Below are positions 20,414-25,489 of a stretch of DNA of 25,489 nucleotides, one piece after another; positions within the stretch are counted from its first letter, which is position 1; the number at the start of each line of letters is the position of its first letter. Under the pieces are notes generated by a model, which saw only the letters and a list, made by a program, of their open reading frames with translations, had not been told where the DNA came from and made no database searches. Location: positions 1 to 25,489 of the IMG/VR virus record IMGVR_UViG_3300037882_001185; one strand, written 5' to 3'. The DNA comes from a virus. Both the position numbers and the translations under genes were made by a program.

Positions 20414-20710
20414 TCAAGGGGCAACTGTGACGTGACGGAACAGGACCGGCTTTCCGACCAGGGTGGAAGCGAGGAACTGCTTGCCAGTCACGGTCTTACA
20501 CCATATCTGCCCTGCCTTATCTTGGTACAGATCGTAGGGCTTCAGGAGCAGGGCTTGCTCGGGTGTTAGGACAATTCTCCATCCCAGATGGTTTCGTATG
20601 TGACACAGAACCCGGCCCGGTTCGGTGGGGTGCGGGTAGTTAGAAGACCCGCGGTAGTACACGAGTGGGATCTTCCAGCTCGGTTTCCCCAGGGAGGAGT
20701 TCGTCGACAT
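20414..20710 (-). CDS. Unknown small protein overlapping terminase 3' end, 98 aa
   Basis: The frame runs through WKIPLVYYRGSSNYPHPTEP, CHIRNHLGWRIVLTPEQALL and KPYDLYQDKAGQIWCKTVTG, ending RHVTVAP. The ATG at 20708-20710 gives 98 residues and a 71-base overlap with the terminase gene, but it has no good Shine-Dalgarno. A GTG at 20660-20662 (82 residues, 23-base overlap, GGAAG 9 bases upstream) is a plausible alternative. No family is recognised. The sequence outside the overlap reads as a normal compact protein. It may be a packaging accessory or an unrelated small virion protein. Confidence 0.6.
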   Translation of the reverse strand: MSTNSSLGKPSWKIPLVYYRGSSNYPHPTEPGRVLCHIRNHLGWRIVLTPEQALLLKPYDLYQDKAGQIWCKTVTGKQFLASTLVGKPVLFRHVTVAP

Positions 20711-22304
20711 CGCTGGCGAACCACGCCTTCGCAGGGTCTCGCTTGGGCTTGGGACTGTCGCCCTCCGTATTGTCCCAAGCAAGCTGCTCCATCGGCCCGA
20801 GCTTCCCCAGTTCTGGGAGTTCGACCTTCGCCGACGGGCGGCGCACTTCGGTCCAGGACAGAAGAGGCAGGTACTGCGTATCGACGATGTCGTCTACTTC
20901 GGATACGCCCCGCTGCCCAGTGAAAGCCATGAACTGGGGTATCACCACTTCACGGGTGAACTGGCTGTCGATGTGAAAGACTTTGCCGGCGGCCATATGG
21001 GCGACGAGGCCGCTGGCATGCTCGCCCTTGTTCGTGGTGCGATTGAAGGCGATGATGCGGGGGTAGACGCGGCGGGCTTCTTGCTCGCGTCTATACGCGC
21101 CCTGCGCGGTGTTCCACAGCCCGCCCTTCTCGATAAAAATGCCCTTGGCGTCGAACTTCTGGTACAGGTCGAACGTCGCCTTGTGCCCGATATCGGGGGT
21201 GACTTTGGCGTGGTAGGGGTCGACGAAGTACAGGTTATCGTCGATATCGACGGCGAAAGGCTGGCTGACGTGGGGGTCGCCGTTCTCGTTTGTACCAAAA
21301 TCGGTACTTATGTACCAGCGCAGGTTCGCGGGGAACTTCTCGCGGGGGAGTAACTTGAACCACTTGCGCTGGAACAGCATGCCGGAATCGAGGAGCGGGT
21401 CCTGTTGATACATCGCCTGCCAGATCCATTCCTGGCCCGCTTCGATCTTGGTCTGCTTCGTCAGTCGACACCACTCGTCAGTGAAGCGTTCCTTATGGAC
21501 TGACTCGCCGGCCTTCCGCCAGGAGCAGTCTTCGGTGGCCACCATCGGGTAAATACAGTTCGTCCACGGACGGGCGCGGAGTTTGAGTAGGCGCCCGATC
21601 AGGTCTTCGGGGTGCCATCTCTGGTGGATGACGACGATCGCTCCATACGGGTGGAGACGCGACTCGGCGACGGACAGGAGGAACTTGAAGACGTGTTCTT
21701 GATGGAGTTCGCTGCGCGCCTCCTGTTCGTTCTTGAAGGGGTCGTCGACGACCAGGACGTGCGCGCGGCGCCCAAGGGAGCCGCCGTCGACGCCGATGAA
21801 AGTCGCCTTGCCGCCGAGGGTCGAGGTGAAGTAGTCCTTGGCGTTGGATGTTCCAGAGAGGGCGAGTTTGGGGTGGATCTCGGCGAACCGCGGGTCGTTG
21901 ATGCGGTTGCGGGTGTCTTCGCCCACCTTCTGCCCCAGATCGGCTCCGTGGGTGACGTAGATGAAGTCCCAGTCGGGGTGCCGGCCCATGGCGTGGCTGA
22001 TGAAGTGAACGCCTGACATCAGGGTCTTGCCGATACCGGGGGGTGTCTGAAGAATCAGGCGCGGGCCGCCATTACTCTGGGACGGGTTCTTCTCGCCCTG
22101 CTCCACCAGTTTCAGCACCCCATCCAGGTGCATGCAGATCTCGCGGTGCACACCACCGGTGATCCACTTAGGCTCGAAGGCTTCGATCTGGCTCAGGACG
22201 GAAGTGCGCGCCTTGAGTTGCAGGGCGGCGGCGTTCGCGTACTGGGACCGGATGTCACTCTTCGAGGTAGTCGTCGGCAACGGGGGCTGGAGCGGGGCTA
22301 ACAA
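20640..22304 (-). CDS. terL: Terminase large subunit
   Basis: The 554-residue DNA-packaging motor has both enzyme domains visible. The ATPase has Walker A TPPGIGKT (87-94), Walker B VLVVDD (183-188) and the coupling motif VVIHQRWHPEDLIGRLL (224-240). The nuclease has STDFG with Asp335, IEKGG with Glu392 and a late acidic DDIVD (471-475) as expected metal ligands. The start is TTG at 22302-22304, chosen because GAGGAG lies 7 bases upstream and no in-frame ATG or better GTG is near. This overlaps the preceding gene by 50 bases. The product recognises and cuts concatemeric DNA and pumps it into the prohead through the portal. Regulation at the level of translation by the weak start codon is possible. 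Confidence 0.96.
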   Translation of the reverse strand: MLAPLQPPLPTTTSKSDIRSQYANAAALQLKARTSVLSQIEAFEPKWITGGVHREICMHLDGVLKLVEQGEKNPSQSNGGPRLILQTPPGIGKTLMSGVHFISHAMGRHPDWDFIYVTHGADLGQKVGEDTRNRINDPRFAEIHPKLALSGTSNAKDYFTSTLGGKATFIGVDGGSLGRRAHVLVVDDPFKNEQEARSELHQEHVFKFLLSVAESRLHPYGAIVVIHQRWHPEDLIGRLLKLRARPWTNCIYPMVATEDCSWRKAGESVHKERFTDEWCRLTKQTKIEAGQEWIWQAMYQQDPLLDSGMLFQRKWFKLLPREKFPANLRWYISTDFGTNENGDPHVSQPFAVDIDDNLYFVDPYHAKVTPDIGHKATFDLYQKFDAKGIFIEKGGLWNTAQGAYRREQEARRVYPRIIAFNRTTNKGEHASGLVAHMAAGKVFHIDSQFTREVVIPQFMAFTGQRGVSEVDDIVDTQYLPLLSWTEVRRPSAKVELPELGKLGPMEQLAWDNTEGDSPKPKRDPAKAWFASDVDELLPGETELEDPTRVLPRVF

Positions 22305-22707: not shown

Positions 22708-23071
22708 CGCAGGTCTCCTACCGAGAAGTTAGCAGGGCCAGCTCCAATAGCAAACGAACCTTCACAACTTATCGTATGTTCACACCTGTTTACTATGCCA
22801 AAACCCACGCCGCGGAGGGAGGGGGGTGCCCTACCTCGCGGGTCCCATCGCCCGCCCCCACGCGACTCGACTTCGGTACCCTCTCCCCTCTCCCGCCCTC
22901 CTGTCGCTCCTCCCCCTCTTGCGAGCGAGTCTCGTCTGGCACACCTGTCTACTCCTGCGAAGTATTGCGCCAGACGTTGCAAGGTAAAGCCCTGGTGGAT
23001 GTCTCGTCTGTCTAATGGGCTGGCGGATCGGGTAGGGGCATCGGTGGGCAGGGGCGCACGGTGGCAATTCC

Positions 23072-23127
23072 TGGCGGGGCAGCTCTGGAGGTGTAGTTTT
23101 GGAGGTACAGCTCTGGCGGGGCAGTTT
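23072..23127. repeat. Four 14-bp tandem repeats with alternating ends
   Basis: Four direct units of 14 bases are contiguous: TGGCGGGGCAGCTC (23072), TGGAGGTGTAGTTT (23086), TGGAGGTACAGCTC (23100) and TGGCGGGGCAGTTT (23114), followed by a partial unit TGGAGGGG. Their last three bases alternate CTC/TTT/CTC/TTT, so a 28-bp higher-order unit is present. They lie in the gene-free region, as iterons would, but they could also be operator or simple repeat sequence. Confidence 0.65.
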
Positions 23128-23152
23128 TGGAGGGGTCGGGGTCGGGGGCGGG

Positions 23153-23173
23153 TGTGTAGGATTTCCCTACACA
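23153..23173. other. 8-bp stem hairpin
   Basis: TGTGTAGG, five-base loop ATTTC, CCTACACA forms a perfect 8-bp stem immediately after the 14-bp repeats and a G-rich run. No T tract follows on either strand within a few bases, so it is not a standard terminator. It may belong to the repeat/origin structure. Confidence 0.5.
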
Positions 23174-23235
23174 TGGGTCCAAACAGAGTAGCAAAGTCAT
23201 AACACCTTTATTTTCAAGTCCCTCCCTTATCTCTA

Positions 23236-23363
23236 TTCACTTGTCTATTATGCTCTATGAGGTTTGGGGGTACCCCTCTTCCGGTAGGGGGTAGGTGGGC
23301 CGTAGGGTGGGCCACCCCCACCCCCCACCCCCGAAGCTTCTAGACCCCCATTAGACAAGTGAA
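23236..23363. repeat. 12-bp inverted repeat framing a G/C-run segment
   Basis: TTCACTTGTCTA at 23236-23247 and its exact complement at 23352-23363 face each other across 104 bases. Between them are the palindrome GGGGTACCCC, several runs of G, a GGGTGG/CCACCC inverted repeat and runs of C, giving strand asymmetry that switches from G to C. The arms belong to the TGTCTA motif family. A pair of binding sites or an origin-like element is possible. Confidence 0.6.
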
Positions 23364-23381
23364 GCGGCCCCCACAACCCCC

Positions 23382-23399
23382 GCAACCCCAATGGGTTGC
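23382..23399. other. 7-bp stem hairpin
   Basis: GCAACCC, loop CAAT, GGGTTGC is a perfect 7-bp hairpin. Downstream on the plus strand comes CAACTTATCTAGTG and, after 13 bases, a run of five T. The distance is too great for a classical terminator. It could be a regulatory structure or an origin component. Confidence 0.45.
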
Positions 23400-23507
23400 A
23401 ACTTATCTAGTGCTTTTTGCGTACGAAATGCTCTGTCTCAGCTGTCTAATAAAAGCGTAATGTCCGCCAAACGTGCACGATATGCTCCGAAGTGGGCGCG
23501 GAGGGAG

Positions 23508-23535
23508 TTTCCAGGGGGTGCCGAGGTGATATAAT
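23508..23535 (+). promoter_or_regulatory. Extended -10 promoter for the rightward genes
   Basis: TGA directly before TATAAT (23530-23535) makes a consensus extended -10 element. A TTTCCA at 23508-23513 (four of six bases of the -35 consensus) lies 16 bases upstream. The expected start of transcription is about 23541-23543, at the ATG of the next gene, so no room remains for a Shine-Dalgarno in the message. Sigma-70-type host polymerase is the likely user. Confidence 0.75.
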
Positions 23536-23541
23536 GAGAGC

Positions 23542-24243
23542 ATGACCTACACCACTCCCCAAGCCTTCCGTCCCTACATTCCATCCTTCGGGGATAAGAC
23601 CCCCAAGCGCCGCGACACCGTCACGCCCCTCGCTTGCTGCGCAATCGAGTCTGTGGCGAAAGCGTGTGGCGTCTCCTGTGTCACAGCCTGTGGCGTGTGG
23701 GATCACGTTCGGCGCCACGCCTTCACCAATCCCTACGCCTATTCTCTGACCCTTGGCCACGTGCTGTCCGATGCTCCGGCGTGTCCTGACGATATCGCCA
23801 ACCCCCCAGACGGGTGTCTCGTCACTGTCCGCCACGCCTCATGGCGTGGCCAGTATGACGGGCGCACCCTCCGCGTCTATGACACTGGGACTGGCCCTCT
23901 ATGGGTGCTCCGCGACAGTATGGGCCTTACCGGCATCGTGCGCGCCGACACCTGGGAAGATGCCTACGAATGCGCGGAAGATGAACTCTTTCCCGAGGCG
24001 GACCAGACCTGGGAAGGAATGGCGGAAGACTGCGACCACAAGGGGCCCATCGATACCCTCCCCGACGCCGCATGTTGGCAAGAGGCGTACGGATTCCGCC
24101 CAAACGGTCCGAACGCTACGGACACGTTCCACCACGGAGTCTATGCTAAGGACTTGAACGGGGAAGCGCTGGACCGTCTGACCCCAGCCCTTGCCAAGCA
24201 TTTGAAGCTGGAAGTCTTCCTGTCTTTCCCCCAAGACTACTGA
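23542..24243 (+). CDS. Cysteine-rich phage protein, 233 aa (leaderless message)
   Basis: The first rightward gene starts at ATG 23542, about 7 bases beyond the -10 element, and lacks a Shine-Dalgarno. The protein has ten cysteines, five of them in residues 32-50 (CCAIESVAKACGVSCVTAC), which may bind metal. The middle part with IVRADTWEDAYECAEDELFP (132-151) resembles a block I know from phage hypothetical proteins, in which an acidic WEDAY-helix follows a strand; the end with EAYGFRPNGPNATDTFHHGV and AKDLNGEALDRLT (202-214) also matches that family's end. No function is established for it. The early position suggests an accessory or takeover gene. The next gene begins 41 bases downstream. Confidence 0.85.
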   Translation: MTYTTPQAFRPYIPSFGDKTPKRRDTVTPLACCAIESVAKACGVSCVTACGVWDHVRRHAFTNPYAYSLTLGHVLSDAPACPDDIANPPDGCLVTVRHASWRGQYDGRTLRVYDTGTGPLWVLRDSMGLTGIVRADTWEDAYECAEDELFPEADQTWEGMAEDCDHKGPIDTLPDAACWQEAYGFRPNGPNATDTFHHGVYAKDLNGEALDRLTPALAKHLKLEVFLSFPQDY

Positions 24244-24284: not shown

Positions 24285-24617
24285 ATGCCCGACGAAAGGC
24301 CCAACGCCATGGATGCCAAAGAGATCCGCGCTGCCCTCGCCTTCCCCGACATGAAACCGGCTGACTACCGGGTCAAGGAAAGCGACACGCCAGAGGAAAT
24401 CGCTTGCGCTCTGCTCAACTGTAATGATTGGCCCGCGCGCTGGAATGCGGACTACTGGTCTGCGAGCATCTGCCTTGCCCTCAAGCAACGGGACCGGGCT
24501 AGGGGGCTGGAAGTGGCACGCATTCTCAAGCGCCACATTGGCACCGGTGGACAGACCCCCGACGCGTGGCTCATGGCCTACATCAAGGGCATGGGCATCA
24601 ATCCGGAGCTTGCCTGA
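24285..24617 (+). CDS. Small unknown protein, 110 aa
   Basis: The 110-residue protein starts MPDERPNAMDAKEIRAALAF. ATG 24285 (GAAGG 9 bases upstream) and ATG 24309 (AAAGG 9 bases upstream) are about equally supported, giving 110 or 102 residues. The core is helical and acidic at first (KPADYRVKESDTPEEIACAL), then has WNADYWSASICLALKQRDRA and a basic helix (RGLEVARILKRHIGTGGQ), ending YIKGMGINPELA. No family is recognised. It lies in the rightward cluster after the leaderless gene, 41 bases away, and is probably on the same transcript. Confidence 0.72.
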   Translation: MPDERPNAMDAKEIRAALAFPDMKPADYRVKESDTPEEIACALLNCNDWPARWNADYWSASICLALKQRDRARGLEVARILKRHIGTGGQTPDAWLMAYIKGMGINPELA

Positions 24618-24732: not shown

Positions 24733-25221
24733 ATGCGCACCATCACCACAACCGTGTACCTGTTTGACGAATTACCCACCGACAAGGCCAAGGAAGCGGC
24801 ACGCGAGTGGATGGCAGAAGTTGAGGCGGACCGCTATGACGACAGTGACTTTTGTGCTGTCCTGAAAGCCTTGGATGGGCAAAGCCGGGAGGACTTAGCC
24901 CGCCTTGCCTCGACTCTGCCCGACTACCAGTACCCTCTGACGGGCTTCTACGCGGAGTACGATGCTTTACAGGCTGTGGCGGAGGTCTTGGGAGACGAGA
25001 GTCAGGACACTGACATCCGAACCTTGCTCCGCGCCGCGCACCGTGCCGTGTGGATGTGCTGCCAAGCGGATCAAGAGGCAAGCCAGGAACGGGGTGCCCT
25101 GGAAGAAACCATCCGCGCGAATGAATACGAGTTTACCGAAACCGGGAGCGCGCAGTCCATCCTTGACACCGCGCGCCTAGTCACTACTCAACACACTCAA
25201 CCCCAAGGCATCGAGCTATGA
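24733..25221 (+). CDS. Small phage protein of the N-terminal TTTVYxFDEL type, 162 aa
   Basis: The protein begins MRTITTTVYLFDELPTDKAK then EAAREWMAEVEADRYDDSDF. This opening (hydrophobic strand, FDEL, helix AKEAAREW) and the late ETIRANEYEFTETGSAQ (124-140) are hallmarks of a phage hypothetical family I know from other tailed-phage genomes. The function of that family is unknown to me. The middle has CCQADQEASQERGALEETIR. The start has only a weak GGAAA eight bases upstream. Its TGA stop overlaps the ATG of the next gene (ATGA), indicating translational coupling with the hexapeptide-repeat gene. Confidence 0.8.
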   Translation: MRTITTTVYLFDELPTDKAKEAAREWMAEVEADRYDDSDFCAVLKALDGQSREDLARLASTLPDYQYPLTGFYAEYDALQAVAEVLGDESQDTDIRTLLRAAHRAVWMCCQADQEASQERGALEETIRANEYEFTETGSAQSILDTARLVTTQHTQPQGIEL

Positions 25222-25489
25222 CCCTATCCTTCGTCCCCGTCCACCCGCGAGACAACCCCAACCTGGAACCCGTGCCGGCCGGCGCACCCGTGCCCTGGGC
25301 ATCCCCGCATGGCTGGTTTCGCACCCTTGGCCATCCCCTGTCCCGGATTGAAGGGAGCGCGAAGGTGGCACCTGCGGCCCGGGTCTGTGATTCGGCCCGA
25401 GTCTATGGTTCGGCCCGAGTCTATGGTTCGGCCCGAGTCTATGGTTCGGCCCGAGTCTATGGTTCGGCCCGAGTCTATGGTTCGGCCCG
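25218..25489 (+). CDS. Hexapeptide-repeat (left-handed beta-helix) protein, cut by right edge
   Basis: The frame opens with ATG at 25218 (coupled by ATGA to the previous gene) and stays open to the right edge, giving 90 full codons. The N-terminal 52 residues are unique (TLSFVPVHPRDNPN, PHGWFRTLGHPLSRIEGSAK). From about residue 53 the sequence becomes hexapeptides: AARVCD, then SARVYG repeated. The SARVYG pattern (small residue, Ala, Arg, Val at the inward position, polar, Gly) matches known phage and bacterial hexapeptide-repeat proteins that form left-handed beta-helices, with three hexapeptides per coil. One degenerate and five perfect repeats lie in the window. Role unknown; candidates are a fibre-like or rigid filament protein. 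It is the last visible gene of the rightward cluster. Confidence 0.8.
   Translation, partial: MTLSFVPVHPRDNPNLEPVPAGAPVPWASPHGWFRTLGHPLSRIEGSAKVAPAARVCDSARVYGSARVYGSARVYGSARVYGSARVYGSA
25375..25489. repeat. 18-bp tandem repeat in the coding sequence
   Basis: One degenerate unit at 25375-25392 is followed by five identical units CGGCCCGAGTCTATGGTT starting at 25393, 25411, 25429, 25447 and 25465, and a partial unit at 25483-25489. The unit keeps the reading frame (six codons). Because the five units are identical down to the third codon positions, they have not had time to diverge, so recent slippage or recombination is indicated. The repeat continues past the window edge by an unknown number of copies. 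Confidence 0.9.

Follow-up and report, generated by a model that had tools for sequence, protein, structure and literature searches.

A perfect hexapeptide-coding repeat at the end of a viral contig lies in a predicted YdcK-type beta-solenoid gene of a family common in phages

We have analysed a stretch of 25,489 nucleotides of viral DNA (IMG/VR record IMGVR_UViG_3300037882_001185, positions 1 to 25,489, hereafter the window) whose right end falls inside a gene with short repeats. This gene comes fourth in a set of rightward genes (starts at 23542, 24285, 24733, and 25218), and lies opposite to a leftward block that carries the terminase, portal, head, and tail-fibre genes. The features considered here are the following:

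20640..22304, minus strand: large subunit of the terminase, with which the leftward structural block begins (PHROG phrog_38, E=4e-63)
23508..23535, plus strand: weak promoter-like match, TTTCCA-16-TATAAT, immediately ahead of the ATG at 23542
23542..24243, plus strand: first rightward gene, without a match to a known family (profile and PHROG search)
24285..24617, plus strand: second rightward gene, likewise without a match to a known family (profile and PHROG search)
24733..25221, plus strand: upstream overlapping gene, phage protein without assigned function (phrog_5162, phrog_10310)
25218..25489, plus strand: predicted hexapeptide-solenoid gene, 5' part, cut by the contig end (open frame, ATGA overlap, PF18836 E=1.3e-7)
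25374..25391, plus strand: degenerate unit AARVCD preceding the array (codon table)
25391..25489, plus strand: perfect 18-bp tandem array of exactly 99 bp, five full units and a partial one (TRF, k-mer break simulation)

Promoter-like matches were no more frequent in the window than in shuffled sequences. In the one listed, six bases separate the end of TATAAT from the ATG at 23542 (23530-23544), and with this spacing the mRNA of the first rightward gene may be leaderless. The gap of ca. 0.8 kb between the divergent blocks (22708-23541) contains runs rich in C as well as a direct repeat of 28 bp (23080-23133), and is possibly a control region or an origin. The upstream gene (24733..25221) had no close relative in IMG/VR or among GenBank phages and the terminase had none in IMG/VR, and therefore we have no sibling phage with the full solenoid gene; the context of a gene from a phage without close relatives has been read by analogy.

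The frame 25218-25487 is open off the contig edge and reads MTLSFVPV...SAKVAPAARVCD(SARVYG)x5SA. The 18-bp unit coding for SARVYG, TCGGCCCGAGTCTATGGT, is found in exact copies at 25392, 25410, 25428, 25446, and 25464 (25392-25481), and TRF gave the array a score of 209 with a period of 18 bp and 6.4 copies, including the degenerate unit AARVCD. The next array in the window scored 87, so that the SARVYG array is not due to chance. The five exact units in an open frame described in the initial annotation were thus confirmed, as was the overlap with the gene upstream, since the ATGA at 25218-25221 is shared between the TGA stop of that gene and the ATG of the solenoid gene, which does run off the edge. 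The exact DNA pattern of two consecutive units had no match in IMG/VR.

The protein (P0001) was just above the gathering cut-off of PF18836 (B_solenoid_ydck), with 31.4 bits against 30 (E=1.3e-7), which bears out its description as a hexapeptide-repeat protein, and it also matched PHROG families without known function (phrog_7964 and phrog_5070). By this profile match we place it, as a new member, among the YdcK-type hexapeptide beta-solenoids, a family common in phages. Its relatives comprised 42 loci in IMG/VR, 14 in species genomes (including Rothia, Actinobacillus, and Bartonella) and 40 phage records, so the kind of gene is already known and widespread, and the SARVYG locus is ordinary for its family. 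Most relatives conserve an N-terminal cap, GG[WY][IV]E...NLS, and many have a C-terminal domain with a GC motif. The usual cap is absent from P0001, of which AKVAPAARVCDSARVYG resembles by eye AYVAPTAYVGPDAWVYG of a second cap type in L011 and L028; its C-terminus lies beyond the contig end. The NCBIfam equivalog YdcK_fam (NF040481) gave 14.7 bits against a cut-off of 350 for this protein cut by the contig end. Models of defence systems gave no match, and we found nothing in the literature on the function of phage YdcK-type proteins. Proteins of phrog_7964 and phrog_5070 (e.g., orf229 of Sfi19 and its relatives) share with P0001 the repeats, the location in phage genomes and the lack of an assigned function, and differ from it at the N-terminus.

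The architecture of the relatives is varied. At L028:5854-7629 the hexapeptide solenoid is fused in-frame to a putative amidoligase (PF12224, E=1e-29); L004, L010, L036, L037, and L038 carry from ca. 3 to 9 tandem paralogous hexapeptide genes each; and in L004, L012, and L034 the C-terminal domain is a different one, with weak matches to DUF5758, below the cut-off, in L012 and L034.

The sole solved sequence relative that we found is YdcK of Salmonella (PDB 2f9c, 2pig; E=0.0055 for 2f9c), a longer bacterial protein that shares the PF18836 repeat profile with P0001 but has degenerate repeats, whereas the units of P0001 are identical in DNA. This relation is the single indication for the left-handed beta-helix proposed at first annotation; AlphaFold folded the repeats without confidence, and the low-confidence solenoid superposed best on a bactofilin. 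For P0001 strands were predicted in a model too poor to use (pLDDT 43.8), and for the relative L013 both ends were confident and the repeats had pLDDT <50. Foldseek ranked YdcK first, without significance. In VIA-align the best superposition was with bactofilin (Z 10.1, rmsd 2.2 A, 89 residues), and that with YdcK had an rmsd >10; since pLDDT is <50 throughout the solenoid, this ranking does not decide the handedness. One coil of a left-handed beta-helix takes three hexapeptides and therefore the five SARVYG units would make fewer than two.

The same superposition raises the alternative of an intracellular filament formed by end-to-end polymerisation of a bactofilin-like protein. Bactofilins (PF04519) are also beta-solenoids of short repeats, and relatives gave weak matches to the bactofilin profile, one of them (L051) marginally above the cut-off. 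However, the superposed solenoid is the low-confidence part of the model, P0001 itself had no match to PF04519, and the folded domains present at both ends in many relatives would block stacking. We consider this unlikely.

The initial annotation had raised the possibility of a length-variable phage filament or adhesin, in which the copy number tunes a rigid beta-helix. Beta-solenoids do occur in phage fibres, and the length of the array differs between some relatives, but the genomic context speaks against this idea. The gene lies outside the structural block, on the strand opposite to the terminase, portal, head, and tail-fibre genes, P0001 has no hydrophobic, signal-like N-terminal stretch, and where the neighbours of the relatives are named they are early, replication or regulatory genes. 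The solenoid gene is found by cro, AcrIIA6, and Gam/Sak4 genes in Sfi19, by Gam and Rad52 in phiRM10, by a recombinase and an exonuclease in 587AP2, before primase-polymerase-helicase in Boilgate, before an RNA polymerase in Aer_P220, after DNA and RNA polymerase genes in phiXacJX1, near an Xre regulator in AP1 and by replication genes in Javan64. In the Vibrio phages, BF766P1, KF-1, and P26059A the neighbours were mostly unnamed, and in P26059A one gene named tail fiber protein lies ca. 3 kb away. Annotated relatives keep the gene mostly among early, replication or regulatory genes. None of the relatives examined had it within a recognisable head-tail module, which argues against a virion filament, and we regard such a role as quite improbable. 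Even less credit can be given to a hexapeptide acyltransferase, as in the deposited names “putative acyltransferase”: such repeats are typical of these enzymes, but no acyltransferase family matched P0001 in the profile search, the relatives gave just weak Hexapep matches below the cut-off, and the near uniform repeats in variable number are unlike an active site.

Comparison of closely related genomes indicates that these arrays can evolve far faster than their flanks in some lineages. L002 and L003 share 5997 of 5998 upstream bases, yet in L003 several units are altered and one further SARVYG unit is present; L032 and L039 are 99.5% identical downstream and have 7 and at least 8 units, respectively. 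In Vibrio phages 1.034.O and 1.034.X the flanks are identical over 4.8 kb, and the genes are 260 and 255 codons long, respectively; 1.139.A and 1.139.B, also with identical flanks, differ by 201 bp. Part of this variation may stem from errors of short-read assembly, since the frames are broken in 1.139.B and 1.209.O. Turnover is not universal either, as Sfi19, Sfi18, and CHPC919 (98-100% identity) have a single length of 690 bp. In each of the 71 arrays that gave a usable background, the codon identity between units for the same residue exceeded that background, often at 0.8-1.0 against ca. 0.35, the excess being small in some arrays. The identity of the five SARVYG units is therefore normal for the family. 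The recent expansion and length variation first suggested for this locus hold for the family, on account of the near-identical relatives and the codon locking, but not for every lineage. In the five Vibrio phages at L044-L048 (1.034.O, 1.034.X, 1.139.A, 1.139.B, and 1.209.O) GenBank carries “CRISPR spacer” features within the hexapeptide gene; the repeat within the coding sequence was apparently mistaken for a CRISPR array.

The perfectly 18-periodic tail of the window (25391-25489) measures exactly 99 bp, which is a standard assembler k-mer size. In de Bruijn assembly, a perfect tandem array makes the graph loop at the first k-mer composed purely of repeat, and a contig that enters the array must stop there. 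We simulated the break with the own flank of the window and perfect arrays of varied length at k=99; all those tried of at least 117 bp ended the contig after exactly 99 periodic bases, and those of up to 108 bp were passed through. Simulations in the COBRA paper gave the same rule, with an end sequence equal to maxK for metaSPAdes and MEGAHIT and to maxK-1 for IDBA_UD, and 99 bp was used there (PMC10914622). We propose that the contig ends at 25489 because the perfect array is longer than the k-mer of the assembler. On this evidence, circumstantial but strong and short of proof, the five visible copies are very probably the point at which the assembler stopped counting rather than a property of the phage: the copies themselves are observed, but their number was probably set by the k-mer, and the true perfect run probably has at least 6.5 units if this explanation is right. 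In 40 related contigs, 11 contig ends lay inside the hexapeptide gene (ca. 750 bp) against 2.0 expected, and one contig (L031 and L043) is broken at both ends, each inside what is apparently the same hexapeptide gene. That contig, with an 84% match, was considered as a sibling phage and discarded because its DNA did not match the window at the right end. A halt within the array at exactly k bases might also suggest that the units were multiplied by the assembler, but a de Bruijn contig writes only k-mers found in reads, so that at least one perfect repeat stretch of 99 bp should exist, and codon-locked arrays are frequent in finished relatives as well, which makes an artefactual array highly improbable. 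Short-read contigs can break off exactly k bases into a perfect array such as this one, so that copy numbers read at contig edges may reflect software settings.

In the solenoid pattern, positions 1, 3, and 5 of the unit are taken as outward, and A and V as inward. We compared each unit with its nearest neighbour and calculated pN/pS as non-synonymous over synonymous change at positions 1, 3, and 5; positions 2, 4, and 6 are restricted by the search pattern, which makes the ratio uninformative there. The units are not independent and the figures ignore recombination, and with this in mind the 21 young arrays gave a ratio of 2.0 (bootstrap 1.5-3.1), the 28 intermediate arrays one of 1.4 and the 30 old arrays, in which the excess is gone, one of 0.94. 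We take the apparent excess at the putative outward positions of young arrays as a lead, not as a test of positive selection.

Our preferred interpretation, to which we give a moderately good chance, is that the protein acts early as a repeat scaffold in the cytoplasm, where it would bind a partner from the host or the phage, and that its units turn over. The gene in the window would be the 5' part of one coding for a YdcK-type hexapeptide beta-solenoid protein, in which identical 18-bp units would arise by in-frame duplication and be lost likewise, through slippage or recombination, so that the array could change more quickly than other parts of the genome without loss of the open frame. By analogy with the annotated relatives, we infer that synthesis takes place early in infection and that the protein remains cytoplasmic. 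The outward side chains of the solenoid, which vary, would probably provide a binding surface for the partner, which is the weakest step, and unit turnover would alter the length and the residues of this surface.

There are known proteins that resemble this scheme in part. Qnr and MfpA are bacterial beta-solenoids, of pentapeptide repeats, that act by binding a partner, gyrase (PMC10886550). Their repeat has five residues instead of the six of the P0001 family, in which the charge of the array is mixed, not consistently acidic, and amounts to +5 over 36 residues in the window. DNA mimicry by the solenoid was considered and rejected, given these mixed charges. Another parallel is NeuO, whose variable repeats are heptanucleotides located outside the helix. 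Encoded by prophage CUS-3, NeuO is a protein of the hexapeptide class with phase-variable activity (PMC3046976), and it differs from P0001 in being an enzyme.

In more general terms, phages might use an expandable hexapeptide solenoid as a fast-evolving early binding module, with duplication setting its length and selection diversifying its outward residues, although we regard so wide a claim as rather doubtful. If true, it would be akin to an arms race with a host factor. The fast turnover in some lineages, together with the excess of amino-acid change at the putative outward positions in young arrays, makes these proteins a candidate for conflict with the host.
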